This document shows positions 1-6,438 of a stretch of 6,438 nt of DNA, piece by piece; within the stretch, counting starts at the first letter, position 1; each line of letters starts with the position of its first letter. The translations under genes were made by a program, and so were the position numbers. This DNA is from Chloroflexota bacterium (GTDB lineage: Bacteria > Chloroflexota > UBA6077): the NCBI GenBank assembly GCA_021788565.1, contig JAJYKO010000336.1, forward strand, positions 1 through 6,438, written 5' to 3'. Under the pieces are notes generated by a model that was given only the letters and a program-made list of their open reading frames with translations, made no database searches and was not told where the DNA came from.

Positions 1-126
1 GCCCCGCACGTCGACGCCGGCCGACGCGCCGCGCTCGCAGAGAACCACGGTGCAGCCTGTCGCCGCGTCGAGGTCAGTGTAGTGCCCGACCTTTATGCCC
101 TCAATGTCGGTGATGGAGTCAACCAT
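1..126 (-). CDS. P1 family (DmpA/BapA-type, S58) aminopeptidase, N-terminal fragment
   Basis: Only the first 42 codons are present; the gene runs off the left edge. The translated start, MVDSITDIEGIKVGHYTD followed by GCTVVLCERGASAGVDVRG, is the characteristic opening of the P1 peptidase family (DmpA, BapA beta-peptidyl aminopeptidase, NylC). These are cytoplasmic or periplasmic Ntn-type hydrolases that self-cleave to expose a nucleophile. That cleavage site and the catalytic residues lie outside the window, so activity cannot be judged. The ATG at 126 is preceded by a purine-rich ribosome binding site (GGGGGGAG on the minus strand, about 8 bases away). It is the last visible gene of the leftward ecf operon, 81 bases after the S-component gene, separated from it by a long palindrome. 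Family members cleave N-terminal residues, including beta-alanine and D-amino acids, from peptides and amides; the substrate here is unknown. The family call is fairly sure despite the short length. Confidence 0.85.
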   Translation of the reverse strand, partial: MVDSITDIEGIKVGHYTDLDAATGCTVVLCERGASAGVDVRG

Positions 127-152
127 GCGTGCGATCTCCCCCCTTGCCGGAC

Positions 153-188
153 TAGACCGGCTCGGTGTTCGAACATCGAGCCGGTCTA
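153..188. repeat. 36-bp near-perfect palindrome between S-component and P1 peptidase genes
   Basis: Arms TAGACCGGCTCG and CGAGCCGGTCTA (12 bp, perfect) enclose a G/T mismatch pair (165/176) and a perfect inner TGTTCGAACA. The symmetry therefore covers 18 bp per side around the 170/171 centre with one non-Watson-Crick pair. As RNA it would fold into a long stem with a 4-base loop. No T-run follows on either strand, so it is not a textbook intrinsic terminator. It lies just upstream of the P1 peptidase ribosome binding site and downstream of the S-component stop. It could be a processing or stability hairpin, an attenuating structure or a protein-binding palindrome; the sequence does not decide. 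Confidence 0.85.
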
Positions 189-207
189 TACCCTGGGGCA
201 GACGGTG

Positions 208-762
208 CTAGTTTCTCTTTGGCTGTACGTCGGACACCTTGGACTTGCCGCCTCCTGTCTCGACCCTCTTCCAGGCGGTGACCACAGCCACAGTAAAGAT
301 CGCGGCCACGATGGCTTCGGGAATGCCGTTAATGGCCGCGGTGGTGGCGGCAACCGGGGCCGTCATGTAGTTGCGCACCACGGCCATTCCAAGGACTAGA
401 ATGGTGTTGGTCATGCTGCCGACAACGGCGGCGACTATCAGCGCGAGATACTCGTTCCACCGCTTCAGCCCGGCGTAGACCAGGAAGGCCGTGACGCCGA
501 TGAATATGCGGGGAAGAACCGCCACCAGCGGGTCCTTAAAGAGGGGCACGGTGGCGTCCACGAAACTGAAGAGTCCAAAAATCAAGCCGATGATGGCGCC
601 CACCCACCCGCCTTCCATGATGCCGCCGATGATCGCGGGGACGTGCATGATGGTGGCATTGCCGGCGGCGGTAGGCACCGGAATGAAGCCGAGTCTCGTG
701 ACGCCAAGCAGGATTGCGATCGCGGCCAGAACACCCGAAATGACGATCTTGCGAATTGCCAT
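208..762 (-). CDS. ECF transporter substrate-binding (S) component, specificity unknown
   Basis: This 184-residue, very hydrophobic protein has about six membrane segments (roughly residues 6-22, 38-50, 52-69, 79-98, 104-129, 147-164) and a short charged C-terminal tail. It has the size and pattern of the ECF S-component family that includes PanT-like proteins. Visible features are a small-residue-rich first helix (SGVLAAIAILLG) of the kind that packs on EcfT, a loop LPRIFIG at 83-89, and GSMTNT at 115-120. S components bind the solute in the membrane and topple when docked on EcfT. The gene sits in the same operon as ecfA1, ecfA2 and ecfT, so this is probably a dedicated transporter, although a shared module cannot be excluded. 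The start at 762 is supported by a purine-rich GGGGGTAGGAAG directly upstream. The ligand is not readable from sequence; neighbouring hydrolases suggest an amide or peptide-like solute (inference). Confidence 0.85.
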   Translation of the reverse strand: MAIRKIVISGVLAAIAILLGVTRLGFIPVPTAAGNATIMHVPAIIGGIMEGGWVGAIIGLIFGLFSFVDATVPLFKDPLVAVLPRIFIGVTAFLVYAGLKRWNEYLALIVAAVVGSMTNTILVLGMAVVRNYMTAPVAATTAAINGIPEAIVAAIFTVAVVTAWKRVETGGGKSKVSDVQPKRN

Positions 763-876
763 CTTCCTACCCCCTAGCTCTCAGTTTCCAGAAAAATCCC
801 CCATGAAACGGTCCAACGATGCCTCTGTCTGCGCCCTAGATCATTGATCACCGTCCCTTCTCGCTAAGACTAGCCG

Positions 877-2106
877 TCAAGAAGCCGCGACGCCAAGATA
901 TCGTAGCGCCGTCAGTGCGTAAAGCCTGGTGGCGTCGACCAGCTGTTGAATATCCAGGTACTCATCGATATGGTGGGGTATGAAGGTGTCACCAGGCCCG
1001 CACGTGATGACCGGGATGCCGGCCCTGGTGTTAAGGATAGTACCATCCGTGCTGCCGGGTACGGCCCCATATACCGGTTCACCACCAACCGCATCTCGGA
1101 AGGCGCTATCCATAGTGGCGACAATCGGCTCATTACGCGGTGTAGAGGTCGGCGGACGGGAGTCGATGATCTCGTACTTGGCGTCGAAAGTGGGGTCTTC
1201 GTCCTTGAGCCGCTTCAGGATTGCCCGCAGCCTGGCCTCGAGATCCTCGGGGGATTGGCTGGGCAGCACTCGGAAATCGAGAGTCACCGTCGATTGGGCC
1301 GGCAGGACGTTGTTCTGCGGCTCCCCGGAGGCCGGCGACTGAACGATAGTGGGGGTGATGCTGGGCTTACCCATGAAGTGGTGCTCCCCATGAATCCGGA
1401 TCTCATCCTCTTCCCAGATCTTCACCTCGCGCAACAGCGCAGCGGCATGGTGGATCGGGTTCACGCCAGTGAGAGGCATCGCGCCGTGCGCCATCACGCC
1501 GCTCATAGTTATCCTGATCCACATCACGCCCTTCTGTTCTATGCAGAGGCGGTTGTCCTCGGGTTCGCAGATCACCGCGGCAGAGATGCCCTTGCCCCAG
1601 CCCCGGGCCACGAAGTTCTTGACGCCCTTCATCTCGCCCTCTTCGTCCGCCAGCGCCCCGATCAATAGTGACCCGCCAAGCTTCACGCCGCGATCCACGA
1701 TGGCTTTAGTCGCCACGATAGCCGCGACCAGGCCGCCCTTCATGTCGTTTACGCCACGCCCGTAGATCCGGCCGTCGGCGATCTCGGCACCGAATGGAGG
1801 GTGCGTCCAGGCGCTCGGATCACCCTCGGTGACCACGTCAGTGTGGCCCTCGAACATCAGGCGGCGCGAGCCTTCAGGGCCAGGCAACACACCAATTACG
1901 TTTGGCCGGCCCGGCTCCACGACCTCCCAGGTTGTCTGGAGGCCCAGCTCCTCGAACTTTCCCTTAACCCAGAGGGCAGCAGCCTCTTCGGCCTCGCCCC
2001 GCTTTGGGCGATAAACGCTGGGGATCCTCGTCAACTCCTGGGCCCAGCGCACGACCAGTTCTGGATCGATACTGTCGAGAATAGTTCGTTCGAGATCGCT
2101 GAGCAT
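877..2106 (-). CDS. M20 family metallo-amidohydrolase (ArgE/DapE type)
   Basis: This 409-residue protein has the full M20 architecture: a di-zinc catalytic domain with an inserted dimerisation domain (about 190-305). Catalytic and metal residues are all visible: GHTD (H88, D90), GRGVNDMKGG (bridging D121), ADEEGE (base E155, ligand E156), E181 in CEPED, H207 in SGVMAHGAMP, and H378 in HHIDEYL. It should therefore be an active cytoplasmic enzyme cleaving an amide or peptide bond, as ArgE, DapE, carnosinases and aminoacylases do. There is no signal peptide. The ATG at 2106 has a strong ribosome binding site GAGGAG (2116-2121) 9 bases upstream. The gene lies between ecfT and the S-component gene, 45 bases after ecfT, so it is almost certainly co-transcribed with the transporter and probably acts on the imported solute or a product of it. 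ArgE, DapE, succinyl-diaminopimelate-like and N-acyl-amino acid activities cannot be separated by eye. Confidence 0.93.
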   Translation of the reverse strand: MLSDLERTILDSIDPELVVRWAQELTRIPSVYRPKRGEAEEAAALWVKGKFEELGLQTTWEVVEPGRPNVIGVLPGPEGSRRLMFEGHTDVVTEGDPSAWTHPPFGAEIADGRIYGRGVNDMKGGLVAAIVATKAIVDRGVKLGGSLLIGALADEEGEMKGVKNFVARGWGKGISAAVICEPEDNRLCIEQKGVMWIRITMSGVMAHGAMPLTGVNPIHHAAALLREVKIWEEDEIRIHGEHHFMGKPSITPTIVQSPASGEPQNNVLPAQSTVTLDFRVLPSQSPEDLEARLRAILKRLKDEDPTFDAKYEIIDSRPPTSTPRNEPIVATMDSAFRDAVGGEPVYGAVPGSTDGTILNTRAGIPVITCGPGDTFIPHHIDEYLDIQQLVDATRLYALTALRYLGVAAS

Positions 2107-2151
2107 GACTAAATTCTCCTCTATGAGTATAAGTCAGCATCCAGTGTATGC

Positions 2152-3009
2152 CTAGATCGGGAAACTACCCTGGTAGGCCACCATAGCCACGGTGAAGACT
2201 AGAATGAGGCCCATCGCGGCCCAGTCGGCAGGCCCGAAAGCGAGATGGATCAGATGAGATCTCCCTTTCCCCCCGATGTAGCAGCGCGCCTCCATGGCCA
2301 GCACAAGGTCCTCGGCCCTGCGGAAGGCGTCGATAAACAAGGGAACTATCAGTGCTGCCATAAGTCTGGTAGTTGTAATGAACTGGAGCCTGCCGCGCGT
2401 CCCTAGGTTTGCTCCCCTGGACGCTTGTGACTTCATTACGATCTCCATCTGCTCGGCCAGGATAGGAACGAAACGGAGGGCTATGGTTGCCACCAGAGAA
2501 AGCTCATGCCCGGGCAAACCCAGCCTGGAGAACGGTCGCAGCATGTCTTCGATGCCGTGCGTCAACTCTGTTGTGGTGGTCGTGTTAGTGAGGAGGCTGG
2601 CCAGAAACATCAGCTGCAAGAAGCGAAGAGTGGAAACAATCACCAGTTGAACGCTGCCGTTGGTGACGTGGATCCAGCCCCACTGGACGTATGTAACGGA
2701 AGCCCTGCCCTGAGGAACGAACTGATCTCCGTAAAAGAGCAGTTGCAGCAGAGCGAGCAGGATTATGAACGGTATTGCGGGCTTGATGCCTCGGAAGGCG
2801 TAGCCTATGGGCACTCTAGCAAGGAGCACGAAGGAGCCGCTGACAAGGAGTAGGATCAAGTTTGCCGTGTAAGACACGTTGAACGATATGGCGATCACGA
2901 TCAAGAGCATTACGGTAATCTTGGTCCTGGGGTCGAGCCTGTGAACGATGGAGTCGCCCGGAAGGTACTGGCCTATGGTGATGTTTCTCAGGAAGTCAAA
3001 ATCTTCCAT
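2152..3009 (-). CDS. ecfT: ECF transporter transmembrane coupling protein EcfT
   Basis: This 285-residue membrane protein links the S component to the two ATPases. It opens with IGQYLPGDSIVHRLDPRTKI, the usual EcfT N-terminal pattern, and has several membrane segments (about 32-46, 48-65, 76-93, 120-140, 170-185, 262-280). The cytoplasmic coupling helices carry the two Ala-Arg type motifs that dock in the ATPase grooves: SQASRGA (194-200, R198) and AMEARCY (238-244, R242). The start chosen is the ATG at 3009, preceded 5 bases away by AGAGGAG; a GTG 33 bases further upstream is open but has no properly spaced ribosome binding site. The gene overlaps ecfA2 by 22 bases, implying translational coupling. 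The order ecfA1-ecfA2-ecfT matches Bacillota group II modules, but the following hydrolase and S-component genes make this a dedicated, group I-like operon. Confidence 0.95.
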   Translation of the reverse strand: MEDFDFLRNITIGQYLPGDSIVHRLDPRTKITVMLLIVIAISFNVSYTANLILLLVSGSFVLLARVPIGYAFRGIKPAIPFIILLALLQLLFYGDQFVPQGRASVTYVQWGWIHVTNGSVQLVIVSTLRFLQLMFLASLLTNTTTTTELTHGIEDMLRPFSRLGLPGHELSLVATIALRFVPILAEQMEIVMKSQASRGANLGTRGRLQFITTTRLMAALIVPLFIDAFRRAEDLVLAMEARCYIGGKGRSHLIHLAFGPADWAAMGLILVFTVAMVAYQGSFPI

Positions 3010-3860
3010 ACCTGCTCCTCTGCATCTTCGACAGTCACACACTCCTCGGGTACTGGGTAGCCACGCTCCCTCAGCGCGTGCATAACCTCCATGATCTGAG
3101 GAGCAGCAAGACCGAAGCGCCGCAGCTCCTGGGGTTGGGAAAAAACCTCCCCCGTACGCCCGCTCATCACTGTTCGGCCGTCACTCAATACGTACACCTT
3201 GTCCACCAGGCTTGTAAGGTCTTCCATGTTGGTCGAGATAAAGACGATGGTGAGCCCTTCCTGGTCGTGAAGCCGCCGAATATCGGCCAGCAACTCCTTC
3301 CGGCCGCGCGGATCGACTCCGGAAGTTGATTCGTCCAGGACCAGCACGTCGGGTCGAAGGGCCAGCACGCCGGCGATCGCCGCCTTCCGCATCTCGCCCC
3401 CGCTCAGAGAGAAAGTGAAACGGTCCTTGAACTTGTCGAAACTCAAGCCGACGATATCCATGGCCCAGTGCACCCGATCTCGGACCTCTGCTAAGGGCAG
3501 GCCCATCCTGAACGGCCCAAAGGCGACATCGTCCCCGACCAATCGCTCGAACAGCTGCGCCTCCGGGTATTGGAAGACGAGGCCGACCTTCTGACGGATG
3601 GCTCGTATGTCGACTTTGGAATCGGCAAGATCGTGTCCGAAGACGATCACCTTGCCCCGCTCCCGCGGCCGGATGAGGCCATTGAAGTGCTGAACTGTCG
3701 TCGATTTACCAGCGCCGGTGCGACCGACGATGCCAACCATCTCGCCCCTGTGGATCTCCATGTTCACACCCTTGAGGGCTAGCACTTCCAGGGGGGTGCC
3801 CTTCAGATAAATGTGGTGGAGATCCCTGATCTGGATAATTGCATCCTGCTGGTCGTTCAT
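2988..3860 (-). CDS. ecfA2: ECF transporter ATP-binding protein EcfA2, with altered switch histidine
   Basis: This 290-residue ABC ATPase has Walker A GRTGAGKST (46-54), Q-loop Q97 (FQYPEAQLF), signature LSGGEMRKAAIAG (152-164), and Walker B VLVLDESTSG (172-181) with D176 and E177. DPRGRKE follows, a pattern typical of EcfA2 rather than EcfA1. It pairs with EcfA1 and grips EcfT. Two deviations are visible. The usual SHSMED switch region reads STNMED (209-214), so the conserved H-loop histidine is Thr210; the nucleotides (ACC codon) confirm this. The residue after the catalytic Glu is Ser rather than Pro, and the signature Gln is Glu. Walker A, Walker B and Q-loop are intact, so it should bind ATP; hydrolysis at its own site may be weak (inference). 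The ATG at 3860 overlaps the ecfA1 stop in an ATGA, with only a weak ribosome binding site, so translation is probably coupled to ecfA1. Confidence 0.95.
   Translation of the reverse strand: MNDQQDAIIQIRDLHHIYLKGTPLEVLALKGVNMEIHRGEMVGIVGRTGAGKSTTVQHFNGLIRPRERGKVIVFGHDLADSKVDIRAIRQKVGLVFQYPEAQLFERLVGDDVAFGPFRMGLPLAEVRDRVHWAMDIVGLSFDKFKDRFTFSLSGGEMRKAAIAGVLALRPDVLVLDESTSGVDPRGRKELLADIRRLHDQEGLTIVFISTNMEDLTSLVDKVYVLSDGRTVMSGRTGEVFSQPQELRRFGLAAPQIMEVMHALRERGYPVPEECVTVEDAEEQVWKILTS
3015..3021 (-). promoter_or_regulatory. ribosome binding site deciding the ecfT start
   Basis: On the minus strand AGAGGAG lies 5 bases before the ATG at 3009. The competing GTG at 3042 has GAGGA directly abutting it, with no room for initiation, and would add 11 poorly conserved Cys/Arg-rich residues. 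This favours 3009. Confidence 0.8.
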
Positions 3861-4720
3861 CTTCTGGCTGCTTTCCGGGTAGCGAACTCGAGGATCTTCT
3901 CCACGGTCTCGTCCACAGTCAGCAAATCGCTGGGGAATTCAGGATCGCGGGCGTGAATGCGGGACGCCAGGTCTGTGGTTTGCGGTACGTCCAGCTGGAG
4001 CGCGCGCAGTGCCTCGGCCCTGGAGAAGATGCCGCGTGGAGTGCCTTCCATCACTATCTGCCCACCTTCCATCACGATCACTCTGCGCGCGTCGATCACC
4101 TCATGCATGAAGTGGGTGATGGCCACTACCGTCATTCCCTGGCCGTTCAGCTCGCGCACCACGCGCAGCACGTCTTCTCTTCCCATGGGATCGAGATACG
4201 CCGTCGCCTCATCCATGACGAGGACCGCGGGCCTCATCGCGATCACGCCCGCGATGGCAACCCTCTGCTTCTGGCCCGCTGAGAGCAGGTGAGGGGCGCG
4301 CTTCCGGACGTCTTCCAGTCCGGTGACCCTCAGCGCCCAGTCTACCCGCGCCTTGAGCTCGTCTCTCGGAACCCCCAGGTTTTCTGGCCCGAAGGCGACG
4401 TCTTCTTCGACGACTGTGGCCACGATCTGGTTGTCGGGGATCTGAAAGACCATGCCGACGGTCGAGCGGACCGCGATGACATTTTCTGGATCTTTGGTGC
4501 TGAGCCCGCGTACCGCGACTTCGCCCTCGGTGGGCAGCAGAAGCGCGTTGAGGTGCTTTGCGAGGGTGGACTTGCCTGAGCCATTGTGCCCGACGACAGC
4601 AAGATACTCACCAGGGAAGACGTCGAGGCTGACGCCGGTCAGGGCTTTGATTGGATTAGGCGACAGGGCGTTGTAGGAGAAGGAAACGTTGTCGACCCGT
4701 ATGATCGGTTCTGTTGCCAT
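3857..4720 (-). CDS. ecfA1: ECF transporter ATP-binding protein EcfA1
   Basis: This 287-residue ABC ATPase is the first gene of the leftward operon. It has Walker A GHNGSGKST (44-52), Q-loop Q93 (VFQIPDNQIVATVVEEDVAF), signature LSAGQKQRVAIAG (146-158), Walker B VLVMDEATAYLDP (166-178; D170, E171) and the switch histidine H203 in ITHFMHEV. The DNQ after the Q-loop and the KQR after the signature are EcfA1-like. The signature deviates from LSGGQ by Ala148. Its own Walker A, Walker B and H-loop are complete. The start chosen is the ATG at 4720, which begins MATEPIIRVDNVSFSY, where the family normally starts, and follows GGGGGAAAC. An in-frame ATG at 4822 would add 34 unconserved residues, lacks a ribosome binding site and would place the upstream hairpin inside the gene. 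The stop overlaps the ecfA2 start by 4 bases. Expression is probably controlled from the divergent region 4721-4990. Confidence 0.95.
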   Translation of the reverse strand: MATEPIIRVDNVSFSYNALSPNPIKALTGVSLDVFPGEYLAVVGHNGSGKSTLAKHLNALLLPTEGEVAVRGLSTKDPENVIAVRSTVGMVFQIPDNQIVATVVEEDVAFGPENLGVPRDELKARVDWALRVTGLEDVRKRAPHLLSAGQKQRVAIAGVIAMRPAVLVMDEATAYLDPMGREDVLRVVRELNGQGMTVVAITHFMHEVIDARRVIVMEGGQIVMEGTPRGIFSRAEALRALQLDVPQTTDLASRIHARDPEFPSDLLTVDETVEKILEFATRKAARR

Positions 4721-4728
4721 GTTTCCCC

Positions 4729-4753
4729 CAAGAGATGGTGGGAAGATCTCTTG
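4729..4753 (-). promoter_or_regulatory. 8-bp perfect hairpin abutting the ecfA1 ribosome binding site
   Basis: In the ecfA1 leader RNA, CAAGAGAT and ATCTCTTG form a perfect 8-bp stem around the 9-base loop CTTCCCACC. The 3' arm runs directly into the G-run (4725-4729) that serves as ribosome binding site. The loop contains UUCCC, complementary to the GGGAA of that binding site, so an alternative hairpin hiding it can also be drawn. The pairing is seen in the sequence. A role in translation control, or as a DNA operator (two half-sites 16-17 bp apart), is inference. Confidence 0.5.
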
Positions 4754-4828
4754 CCTCTGGAAGAACAAAGAGCTGTCGGGATCTTCGAGACGCCGTTGAC
4801 AGTCGCCGCTTTCCGGGGGCATAATCGT

Positions 4829-4844
4829 TTGTCGATTGTCGACA
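4829..4844. promoter_or_regulatory. candidate GntR operator: TTGTCGATTGTCGACA
   Basis: This short site holds a tandem TTGTCGA repeat, a 13-bp inverted repeat GTCGA-TTG-TCGAC (4831-4843) and the perfect palindrome TGTCGACA (4837-4844). The form, a TTGT...ACA palindrome, resembles sites of FadR/FCD-type GntR proteins. It lies about 15-22 bases downstream of the predicted leftward start and just upstream of the predicted rightward -35, where a repressor encoded next door could control both. Assignment is by position and symmetry only. Confidence 0.5.
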
Positions 4845-4849
4845 TAGCC

Positions 4850-4877
4850 TTGAAACTGTCGGCTGTTTTAACATACT
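4850..4877 (+). promoter_or_regulatory. possible weak sigma70-type promoter for the regulator/aminotransferase unit
   Basis: TTGAAA (4850-4855), a 16-base spacer and CATACT (4872-4877) give a plausible but imperfect promoter, with transcription starting near 4884 and a leader of about 107 bases before the regulator gene. It overlaps the opposite-strand promoter, so the two would compete for RNA polymerase if both are real. Confidence 0.35.
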
Positions 4878-4893
4878 CTCTAGCCAGCGTCAA
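4865..4893 (-). promoter_or_regulatory. predicted sigma70-type promoter of the ecf operon
   Basis: On the minus strand TTGACG (4893-4888) is separated by 17 bases from TAAAAC (4870-4865). The -35 matches consensus at five of six bases and the -10 at four of six. The start would be near 4858, giving a leader of about 138 bases to the ecfA1 ATG that includes the palindromic operator candidate and the hairpin next to the ribosome binding site. Confidence 0.5.
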
Positions 4894-4990
4894 GCAATAT
4901 TTCGCGGATGAATGCCCATGCTCGGGATGTCGTAGAGGTGTCCACTTCGATGTCCGCCAAGTTCACCTGTGTCGAGATTGCAGCGCAACC

Positions 4991-5662
4991 ATGAGCAGAG
5001 TCGCCGCCGATGTACTACCTTATACAGCACTGCGTGATGCAGTTCTGATCGCCCTTCGAGCGGCGATTGTCGAGGGCAAGCTCCAGCCTGGAGAGCGCCT
5101 CCTGGAGGCCGAGATAGCGCGCGAGTTTGGTACCAGCAGGGCGCCGCTGCGCGAGGCGATCCGGCAGTTGGAGAGCGAGGGGCTCGTGGTGAGCGCGCCT
5201 CATCGCGGTACGTTCGTCACCAAACTCTCGGGGGAAGACGCGCGCGAGATCTACTGTCTGCGGGCAGCCGTGGAAGGAATGGCCGCAATCCTCGTTGTTC
5301 GGTCCGGTCGTACTGAGATCCTCGACAGGCTCGATCAACTCTTGACTGAGATGAAGTCCTGCGTCGCCTCCGGCGAGGTCGAGCGGGTGATCCAGGCCGA
5401 TTTCCGTTTCCACGAAATTCTCTGCCAGGCGGCAGGCAATGCCCGGCTGCTCGGCGTCTGGTTGAGTATGAGGACGCAAATCCGTGCATTTGTCTCCGCG
5501 ACGAGCCAGCGATATCTGAAGCCTTCCGAGCTGGTACGCCGGCACTGTGTGGTTCTGGAAGCCATGCGAGCTGGCGATGCGCAGCGCGCACAGTGGTTGC
5601 TCACCGGCGATATACTCGAGGTCGGAGAGCACGTCGCCGCGCGGTTGGCTGCGGTTGGGTGA
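4991..5662 (+). CDS. GntR family transcriptional regulator, FadR/FCD subfamily
   Basis: This 223-residue regulator has an N-terminal winged helix (about 11-78: YTALRDAVLIALRAAIVEGK, PGERL, recognition helix around SRAPLREAIRQLESEGLV, wing HRGTFV) and a C-terminal all-helical FCD ligand domain (about 85-220). Metal-site residues of the FCD domain are visible as D137 and H141 (ADFRFHE) and H185 (RRHCVVLEAM). The usual third His, 22 residues after H185, is Asp207, with H214 nearby. FCD proteins bind small carboxylates or amino acids and act as dimers on short palindromes. It is divergent from the ecf operon and 44 bases upstream of the aminotransferase, so it probably controls both by a shared region. 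The start at 4991 fits the family's usual N-terminus; the ribosome binding site is weak (GAGA about 13 bases away), which may mean low expression. The reading frame stays open upstream, but that part is antisense to ecfA1 and not conserved. Confidence 0.92.
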   Translation: MSRVAADVLPYTALRDAVLIALRAAIVEGKLQPGERLLEAEIAREFGTSRAPLREAIRQLESEGLVVSAPHRGTFVTKLSGEDAREIYCLRAAVEGMAAILVVRSGRTEILDRLDQLLTEMKSCVASGEVERVIQADFRFHEILCQAAGNARLLGVWLSMRTQIRAFVSATSQRYLKPSELVRRHCVVLEAMRAGDAQRAQWLLTGDILEVGEHVAARLAAVG

Positions 5663-5693
5663 CGAACGGGAATCCTCAAAACGATTTGCTTGT

Positions 5694-5700
5694 GGAGGGA
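5694..5700 (+). promoter_or_regulatory. ribosome binding site of the aminotransferase
   Basis: GGAGGGA lies 6 to 8 bases before the ATG at 5707, much stronger than the site before the regulator. The 44-base gap after the regulator stop shows no terminator hairpin, which supports co-transcription. Confidence 0.75.
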
Positions 5701-5706
5701 GCGAGA

Positions 5707-6438
5707 ATGGACACCGTCGAGAAGTACAGCCGCTACGTCATCACCAGTTGTACGAAAGGGGTGGAGCCGGTAGTCGTGGATCACGCCCTGGGCGCCACCA
5801 TCACCGACACCTCGGGAAAGAGCTATCTGGATTGCTTCGCGGGCATCTCCGTTGTCAACGCCGGACACTGCAACGAGCGGGTCAACGCCGCCGCCAAGTC
5901 GCAGATTGATCGGCTGATCCATGCCAACGTCTATTCCTACTATCTGACACCCGCGGCCGACCTGGCCGAAAAGCTGGCGGAGATCCTGCCTGATCCCCTG
6001 GAGAAGACTTTCTTCTGCAACAGCGGCGCGGAGGCTATCGAGGGCGCCCTGCGAGCCATCAAGAAGTTCAACGGCCACCGCGAGACGATCTCCCTGATGG
6101 CGTCGTTCCATGGCAGAACCTACGGGACCCTGAGCATCACCGGACAGTCGGGCCGGAAGCGCGGCGGCGGCCCCTACGCCCCGGGCTCCGCCTTCGCTCC
6201 CGTGCCGTATTGCTACCGCTGCCCTTTCCGAATGAGCTACCCGGAGTGTGGGCTCGCCTGCGCTGAAGCGGTCGAAGATACCTTCCGCTACCAGACCAGC
6301 GACGACGTCGCTGCTTTCATCACCGAACCGGTGATGGGAGAGGGAGGCATACTGACGCCGCCCGCGGAGTACTTCAAGGTGGCCGTGGGTATCGCGCGCG
6401 ACCACGGGGCGCTCTGGCTGGCAGATGAAGTACAGAGC
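5707..6438 (+). CDS. class III PLP-dependent aminotransferase (omega-amino acid type), C-terminally cut by window edge
   Basis: The first 244 codons are present and open to the right edge. The fold-type I class III pattern is clear: G-x-T-x-x-D-T-S-G-K-S-Y-L-D (29-42), NSGAEA (105-110, cofactor phosphate binding), SFHGRTYG (133-140), EPVMGEGG (207-214) and ADEVQ (239-243) with D240, which contacts the PLP ring nitrogen. The catalytic lysine lies beyond the window. Members include 4-aminobutyrate, beta-alanine:pyruvate, AGXT2-like and ornithine aminotransferases; the exact substrate is not readable. A four-cysteine stretch at 169-185 (CYRC, then PECGLAC) recalls a clade of bacterial and archaeal omega-aminotransferases and AGXT2-like proteins. 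It follows the GntR gene by 44 bases and is likely regulated with it. Context suggests that it deaminates an amino acid released by the M20 or P1 hydrolases (inference). Confidence 0.92.
   Translation, partial: MDTVEKYSRYVITSCTKGVEPVVVDHALGATITDTSGKSYLDCFAGISVVNAGHCNERVNAAAKSQIDRLIHANVYSYYLTPAADLAEKLAEILPDPLEKTFFCNSGAEAIEGALRAIKKFNGHRETISLMASFHGRTYGTLSITGQSGRKRGGGPYAPGSAFAPVPYCYRCPFRMSYPECGLACAEAVEDTFRYQTSDDVAAFITEPVMGEGGILTPPAEYFKVAVGIARDHGALWLADEVQS

Follow-up and report, generated by a model that had tools for sequence, protein, structure and literature searches.

A candidate locus for vitamin B5 import and cleavage in Chloroflexota

Gene content of the locus

The stretch of DNA analysed here, called the window throughout, comprises 6,438 nucleotides from a Chloroflexota bacterium (assembly GCA_021788565.1, contig JAJYKO010000336.1) and encodes an energy-coupling factor (ECF) transporter together with two putative amidases. 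The protein families are ordinary ones, and their arrangement across 80 related loci points to import and breakdown of vitamin B5 (pantothenate). Families, linkage, catalytic residues, the kinship to PanT and the failure to find PanC were computed, while we infer the substrates and the directions of flux.

The genes on the minus strand are arranged in the order EcfA1-EcfA2-EcfT-M20-S-P1. EcfA1 (3857-4720) is an ATPase whose open reading frame extends from 4822, with a likely start at 4720 (TIGR04520, 352 bits, cut-off 315). The second ATPase, EcfA2 (2988-3860), scores just below the cut-off of its model (TIGR04521, 323 versus 330 bits) and carries a threonine in place of the H-loop histidine. 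It is followed by the CbiQ-type transmembrane component EcfT (2152-3009; PF02361, 122 bits), for which the start at 3009 was picked from the ribosome-binding site, an alternative being 3042. An ArgE/DapE-type metallo-amidohydrolase of the M20 family (877-2106, 409 aa) matches the ArgE/DapE deacylase model TIGR01910 with 251 bits (cut-off 218), and the PanT-like S component (208-762, 184 aa) matches PF12822 with 88 bits (cut-off 30.7). The window end cuts the last gene, leaving the first 42 aa of a P1/S58 protein, an Ntn hydrolase of the DmpA/ThnT/NylC type (1-126; PF03576, 28 bits, cut-off 23.9). The overlaps between EcfA1 and EcfA2 (3857-3860) and between EcfA2 and EcfT (2988-3009) indicate an operon-like arrangement, and the window contains two EcfA, one EcfT and one S component in a single operon.

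A GntR-family FCD regulator (4991-5662, plus strand; PF07729, 89 bits; PF00392, 65 bits) and a class III aminotransferase (5707-6438, plus strand; PF00202, 183 bits), of which the window holds the first 244 codons, are encoded divergently. An earlier reading of this DNA (the original prediction) had proposed a complete EcfA1-EcfA2-EcfT-S set with an M20 and a P1 enzyme, together with a GntR-FCD regulator and class III aminotransferase transcribed in the opposite direction, and the profile scores confirm all of these families.

The H-loop histidine is missing from all nine separate EcfA2 proteins of Chloroflexota that were compared, the window included (proline in seven, threonine in one, serine in one). 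It is kept in EcfA1 of Chloroflexota (9/9) and in both EcfA1 and EcfA2 of Bacillota (49/49 each). EcfA1 and EcfA2 are seemingly fused at L003, L043, L066, L072, L073, L074 and L080, where one stop-to-stop frame of 596-723 aa contains two Walker A motifs; of the two fusions read out, L074 retains the H-loop histidine in its second half and L003 does not.

The S component and its relationship to PanT

Comparison of the S profile with solved structures placed Lactobacillus brevis PanT first (4rfs_S, 2.2e-12) and Lactobacillus delbrueckii PanT second (6zg3_C, 1.4e-4), followed by RibU (0.61). The same two PanT proteins rank first and second in a Foldseek search with the S model (pLDDT 72), with 29% and 24% identity. 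Among solved structures, PanT is therefore the nearest characterised S component by both sequence and fold, in line with the original prediction, which had noted a resemblance to the PanT-containing family. In L. brevis PanT, mutations have shown R95, N131 and W64 to matter for pantothenate binding, according to the eLife paper PMC7755397; the accessible part of PMC11521937 holds nothing on binding residues. These three residues align with R85, N119 and F62 of the window S component (positions counted by hand on the profile alignment), and each of these columns is at least 97% conserved across 83 S sequences. Profile and fold model make a strong case that the S component belongs to the PanT kind, and it very probably binds a classic vitamin, the proposed ligands being pantothenate and perhaps pantetheine.

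The likeness to the ECF-PanT complexes of lactobacilli (4RFS, 6ZG3) comprises the fold of the S component, two of the three mutation-tested residues and the EcfA1-EcfA2-EcfT module. The lactobacillal complexes are group II systems with modules common to several S components (PMC7755397, accessible part), whereas the S gene of the window has an ECF module and amidases encoded alongside it.

Linkage of the S component with the amidases

Searching 84,980 species genomes with the S-component alignment yielded 130 confirmed relatives, and the best 80 loci were analysed. By record title, 22 of these belong to Chloroflexota and 56 to Bacillota; L007 (Burkholderiales) and L076 (Terrabacteria ANGP1) were left out of the tally. 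Gene presence was scored with profile hidden Markov models (HMMs) made from these same loci (score at least 200), and many Chloroflexota loci end at contig ends. P1 is present at 14/22 Chloroflexota and 39/56 Bacillota loci, and M20 at 10/22 and 35/56. At 7/22 Chloroflexota and 12/56 Bacillota loci, neither of them nor an amidase-signature enzyme is encoded. The gene order is ECF-M20-P1-S at the nine Chloroflexota loci with all three (those with ECF genes in reach), ECF-S-P1-M20 in Bacillota and ECF-M20-S-P1 in the window. Relatives repeatedly combine ECF, S, P1 and M20 genes, which places the arrangement of the window far beyond chance.

As a control for linkage, 30 of 59 PF12822 matches from 12 genomes were examined with 1.5 kb per side, a few with less. 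P1 and/or M20 lie within this distance of the S gene at 12/12 PanT-like loci versus 0/18 other PF12822 loci of the same 12 genomes (Fisher 1.2e-8; the genomes are related and hence not independent). This co-occurrence supports the original proposal of an ECF importer wired to two amidases that cleave what it imports, and the separation of S component and hydrolases among relatives that had been named as grounds against the proposal is not seen. The broad family PF03576 occurs in 12/12 genomes searched, including those without P1 at the locus, and also in 5/14 control genomes. L008, L036, L061 and L075 have no P1 at the locus and a PF03576 protein elsewhere in the genome, while P1 proteins at L085, L086 and L088 score 523-549 bits with the locus-built P1 HMM and L087 (genome G003) carries P1 as well.

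Protein searches (E ≤ 0.001) returned 2,877 relatives of the S component and at least 5,172 of M20, and Chloroflexota are the organism-named matches among the best 120 relatives of each. One contig of 20,658 bases encodes an S component 100% identical and an M20 protein 99% identical to those of the window. Mean identity between 15 Chloroflexota loci (window included) and 13 Bacillota loci, both chosen sets, is 62% for S, 54% for P1 where present, 50.5% for M20 and 45% for EcfT. The S component is thus more alike between the phyla than EcfT, M20 and P1, which fits a shared ligand.

The EcfT-S locus L007, titled Burkholderiales bacterium, has an EcfT score like those of Chloroflexota and is probably a mis-binned contig.

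Candidate catabolic genes in Bacillota

Breakdown of pantothenate begins with hydrolysis of its amide bond to pantoate and beta-alanine. Pantoate is then oxidised to 4-dehydropantoate (chemistry of short-chain dehydrogenases, SDR), to 3,3-dimethylmalate (aldehyde dehydrogenase, ALDH) and to 2-oxoisovalerate and CO2 (decarboxylating dehydrogenase of the tartrate-dehydrogenase type, TTC), while beta-alanine is converted via malonate semialdehyde to acetyl-CoA. The pathway of Pseudomonas fluorescens consists of pantothenase, pantoate 4-dehydrogenase, dehydropantoate dehydrogenase and dimethylmalate dehydrogenase.

TTC, ALDH and SDR genes occur together at 16/56 Bacillota loci, and TTC at 20/56. 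L058 contains a sigma-54 activator, TTC, ALDH, SDR, EcfA1, EcfA2, EcfT, S, P1, M20, a CoA-acylating malonate/methylmalonate-semialdehyde dehydrogenase (MMSDH; TIGR01722, 638 bits, cut-off 448.5) and a class III aminotransferase, all co-directional, and L027 likewise carries MMSDH and a class III (omega-) aminotransferase. As judged from protein families, relatives in Bacillota, L058 among them, carry a gene of suitable chemistry for every step of pantothenate breakdown. This is the likeness to P. fluorescens, where the pathway is known from enzyme activity; the 22 Chloroflexota loci differ from it in having no dehydrogenase trio.

TTC proteins are common, with 34 places over the cut-off in 20/22 genomes. 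In a midpoint-rooted tree built from 19 linked copies and 20 others (the latter including L108 and L109, which fall below the TTC cut-off; the tree omits the split TTC of L046, which scores below 300), the locus-linked TTCs, that of L050 included, form one clade (support 96/98), joined by one Brevibacillus fortis copy from outside the S loci. The B. fortis gene adjoins ALDH, SDR and a sigma-54 regulator, and its neighbours thus provide a check on what the clade means. No clear pantothenate cluster was recovered by a plasmid search with TTC (best 25 of 715 records, two regions examined), and the unannotated regions around plasmid P1 matches in Microvirga (L081) and Sinorhizobium (L084) contain no S gene by the locus HMMs. 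The Paenarthrobacter plasmid pADNL1 (L113, 1771-8077) encodes, at short distances from one another, a LysR regulator, a transporter of the MFS family, a tartrate dehydrogenase, a protein of the penicillin-acylase family and a short piece of P1, perhaps another cluster of the pantothenate type.

CoA and pantoate genes and the requirement for vitamin B5

PanB and PanE are both encoded at 5/22 Chloroflexota loci, namely L001, L014, L030, L062 and L064 (genomes G013, G014, G015, G008 and G016, respectively). PanB exceeds the TIGR00222 cut-off of 208 in all five genomes (344 bits for the L014 and 340 bits for the L062 protein), and PanE of L062 exceeds that of TIGR00745 (280 versus 141 bits). An FCD gene adjoins PanB/PanE in L014, L030 and L064, and CoaX and CoaBC are present at L001 and L062. 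The order P1-S-CoaX occurs in two Clostridia, Clostridioides difficile and Acetoanaerobium. Among distant relatives of S, the order CoaB-CoaC-S is found in Enterococcus faecalis and a gene for a CoA pyrophosphatase beside S in Aerococcus. A plasmid search with the window S component returned five records, and a CoA-type gene adjoins S in 4/4 regions examined (all but that of L. fermentum).

The original prediction had favoured beta-alanine conjugates as substrates. The choice of a beta-alanine amide stands, pantothenate being N-pantoyl-beta-alanine, while the wider class of carnosine-like peptides does not: PanB, PanE, CoaX, CoaBC and pantoate-type dehydrogenases at the loci narrow the substrate to pantothenate or pantetheine.

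PanC, PanD and archaeal PPS were each found in 0/16 S-bearing Chloroflexota genomes, while the same searches were positive in 9, 8 and 4 of 14 control genomes. CoaX is present in 12/16, PanB above its cut-off in 5/16, with two further weak matches. All 16 are titled as metagenome-assembled genomes (MAGs), and CP070811, which holds L062, is a single chromosome record. In one class, 29 genomes were compared: PanC is found in 0/3 with S and in 18 of the 26 without S, the other eight having none. Pooled with the 16 genomes, PanC occurs in 0/18 S-bearing genomes versus 18/26 (Fisher 1.6e-6, uncorrected for kinship). Since none of PanC, PanD and PPS was found, the S-bearing Chloroflexota are probably vitamin B5 auxotrophs, a prediction drawn from 16 genomes that are all MAGs. 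The same negative searches disfavour ordinary biosynthesis as the role of PanB and PanE. With no known route from them to pantothenate, the presence of these two enzymes suggests either their reverse use or an unrecognised substitute for PanC. PanC was found in 19/19 Bacillota genomes searched, and import together with the genes described above therefore fits catabolism better than auxotrophy in this phylum.

The two amidases

The positions of M20 that we take to bind metal (H, D, E, E/D, H) or to catalyse (E) are well kept: H, D, E, E and E in 46/46 sequences, the window among them, and the last H in 45/46, the other row being a gap. The resemblance to the DapE/ArgE deacylases comprises the TIGR01910 subfamily and these metal-ligand-type positions, while the genomic context of the window M20 points to a beta-alanine amide. 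Among the matches listed (25 of 51), no equivalog model reached its cut-off for M20.

The threonine nucleophile of P1 is present in 56/56 relatives, preceded by asparagine in 53 and serine in three; the window fragment ends before that part. Full-length relatives from L058 and L001 match nylon hydrolase first (248-251 bits) and ThnT with 179-189 bits, and the structural relatives of the window fragment are nylon hydrolase (9cxr) and an L-aminopeptidase/D-esterase (9yys). ThnT, an enzyme of thienamycin biosynthesis (3S3U, 3TM1), degrades a pantetheinyl group, according to PMC6097109. It shares the S58/P1 Ntn hydrolase family with P1 but acts on a carbapenem-bound pantetheinyl group, whereas P1 here is linked to vitamin uptake and is nearer to 9cxr by score.

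M20 is present at 14/16 loci with the full trio, as is P1. L040 and L048, the two trio loci without M20, have an amidase-signature enzyme instead; L046 carries one too and lies outside the 16 loci with its TTC split. At these three loci the enzyme, of about 500 aa and assigned to its family by eye, is encoded downstream of P1 in the place of M20. It is possible that it represents a non-orthologous replacement for the M20 amidase step. Six Bacillota loci (L039, L047, L051, L067, L071 and L073) contain P1 without M20 or an amidase-signature enzyme, and TTC is found at 0/6 of these few and related loci. Because M20 or its substitute is found at every trio locus, P1-only loci lack TTC, and the P1-S-CoaX order occurs without M20, we propose with moderate confidence that M20 is a pantothenase and P1 a ThnT-like pantetheine hydrolase, a division of labour deduced from gene context.

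A proposed pathway and its alternatives

The window is probably the Chloroflexota form of a locus for import and cleavage of vitamin B5 in the form of pantothenate or pantetheine. A dedicated ECF complex with its PanT-family S component would import pantothenate and perhaps pantetheine. P1 would cleave pantetheine to pantothenate and cysteamine, and M20, acting as pantothenase (EC 3.5.1.22), would cleave pantothenate to pantoate and beta-alanine, such that surplus vitamin becomes a source of carbon and nitrogen. In Bacillota, SDR, ALDH and the TTC-type decarboxylating dehydrogenase would convert pantoate to 2-oxoisovalerate, and an aminotransferase followed by malonate-semialdehyde dehydrogenase would take up the beta-alanine half. 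In some Chloroflexota, PanE and PanB, present without PanC, may run backwards and yield 2-oxoisovalerate and a one-carbon unit. The FCD regulator adjoining the operon would sense an intermediate of the pathway.

Pantothenate breakdown activity has been known since the 1960s, and a pantothenate hydrolase paper of 1966 is among the references of PMC10393543. That article (JBC) states that the protein identity of pantothenase was unknown as of 2023, and that pantothenate is cleaved ahead of CoA synthesis in Escherichia coli and in various isolates. In open-licence literature, mostly abstracts, no gene was found for pantothenase, pantoate 4-dehydrogenase or dimethylmalate dehydrogenase. The locus family may hold the first genes to be assigned to pantothenase (M20 or the amidase-signature enzyme) and, in Bacillota, to the three later enzymes, with SDR as D-pantoate 4-dehydrogenase, ALDH as dehydropantoate dehydrogenase and the TTC clade as dimethylmalate dehydrogenase, with reversed PanE/PanB of Chloroflexota as a second route of pantoate breakdown and an ECF transporter that also serves nutrition. 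This broader claim is a tentative one, and we hold it with less confidence than the assignment of the window itself. The cluster offers concrete candidates for pantothenase and the downstream steps, open to study in culturable bacilli and with purified proteins. It also connects an ECF transporter of the vitamin type with degradation and singles out the S-bearing Chloroflexota as likely B5 auxotrophs. If true, an ECF vitamin transporter would serve nutrition and not cofactor supply alone.

Several observations weigh against import coupled to breakdown. The third binding residue of PanT, W64, is replaced by phenylalanine (F62) in the window S component, and nylon hydrolase tops all three P1 structure searches, with ThnT second, third and not among the matches listed for the window fragment. 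The 12/56 Bacillota loci without P1, M20 or an amidase-signature enzyme have ECF and S genes but no amidase (by title Neobacillus 7, Bacillus sp. 4, Sporolactobacillus 1). The TTC/ALDH/SDR trio is found at 0/22 Chloroflexota loci and is not complete at 40/56 Bacillota loci; in B. fortis it lies elsewhere. The prototrophy of the Bacillota, although likely, is judged from PanC as its single marker. PanC, PanD and PPS were not detected in the 16 S-bearing Chloroflexota genomes, and an auxotroph that cleaves its own vitamin would need good regulation, or else its amidases serve salvage only.

Degradation is well supported in Bacillota; in the PanC-less lineage of the window, salvage is a serious rival. 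P1 acting on pantetheine and M20 acting on an N-pantothenoyl amino acid such as pantothenoyl-cysteine would release pantothenate for CoaX and CoaBC without any breakdown of the vitamin, and the FCD regulator and the aminotransferase would be incidental. The missing biosynthetic genes, CoaX in 12/16 genomes and the P1-S-CoaX order in two Clostridia agree with this, and salvage accounts equally well for the CoaX and CoaBC genes at L001 and L062. However, M20 shares about 50% identity with its Bacillota counterpart, which adjoins pantoate-type catabolic genes, and PanB and PanE without PanC in 5/16 genomes have no known anabolic outlet. We consider salvage alone unlikely, though it is the strongest of the alternatives. 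The roles could also be exchanged, with P1 as the pantothenase and M20 or the amidase-signature enzyme acting on another vitamin-derived amide. S58 enzymes work via an acyl-enzyme, the threonine nucleophile of P1 is kept throughout (56/56), and PF03576 occurs in every genome searched (12/12), even off-locus, as it does in 5/14 controls. This assignment is nevertheless improbable, given that P1 is encoded in an S-CoaX operon without M20 in two Clostridia, where destruction of the vitamin makes little sense, and that TTC is missing from the six P1-only Bacillota loci, which are few and related. A system that scavenges beta-alanyl peptides or other omega-amino amides, unconnected to vitamin B5, would agree with the inclusion of such enzymes in the P1 and M20 families and with nylon hydrolase as the closest P1 structure. 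The kinship to PanT, the binding residues and the CoA and pantoate genes at the loci make it very improbable, and on the recurrence of these genes we reject the use of beta-alanyl peptides such as carnosine as the principal function. The original prediction had also named, as grounds against itself, a classic vitamin as ligand of S with enzymes unrelated to it; the vitamin part very probably applies, whereas the enzymes, as judged from their families and linkage, look related to it.

ECF and S genes without amidases or the catabolic trio were noted in 11 Neobacillus and Bacillus sp. loci (L028, L032, L034, L035, L037, L038, L041, L042, L045, L049 and L052).

Aminotransferase, FCD regulator and the divergent region

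The full-length counterpart of the window aminotransferase, P0241 (426 aa), is 100% identical to the fragment over the shared part. Its best models, PRK08117 and PRK05769, stay below their cut-offs, and its nearest solved structures are isoleucine 2-epimerase followed by GABA aminotransferases; the names of close relatives include GABA and 3-amino-2-methylpropionate transaminase. Neither it nor the L058 aminotransferase has a match at any of the 22 Chloroflexota loci, several of them cut by contig ends, by phmmer at E ≤ 1e-15, while five Bacillota loci match besides L058. One weak match (24% identity) lies at 11280-12152 of L014. The aminotransferase does not fall into a characterised beta-alanine aminotransferase subfamily, and phmmer, models and nearest structures all leave a conserved beta-alanine transaminase unsupported, so that the original view of it as a conserved part of the pathway is not upheld. 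By its position, the enzyme could still consume beta-alanine.

Counterparts of the FCD regulator are encoded beside the same operon in L014, L030, L057 and L064. A post hoc operator search found a palindrome, AATGTNNACATT, in the divergent region, strong in L057 and L064, nearly so in L014 and with none to speak of in that of L030. The window contains a similar candidate FCD operator, ATTGTCGACATA, at 4835-4846 of the divergent intergenic region (no strand assigned). It is weak, with equally good palindromes in 17/200 shuffles and matches in 34/200 shuffles of the whole window. Just upstream of it, at about 4796-4830, TTGACA and CATAAT can be seen by eye about 18 bases apart, reading towards the FCD gene.

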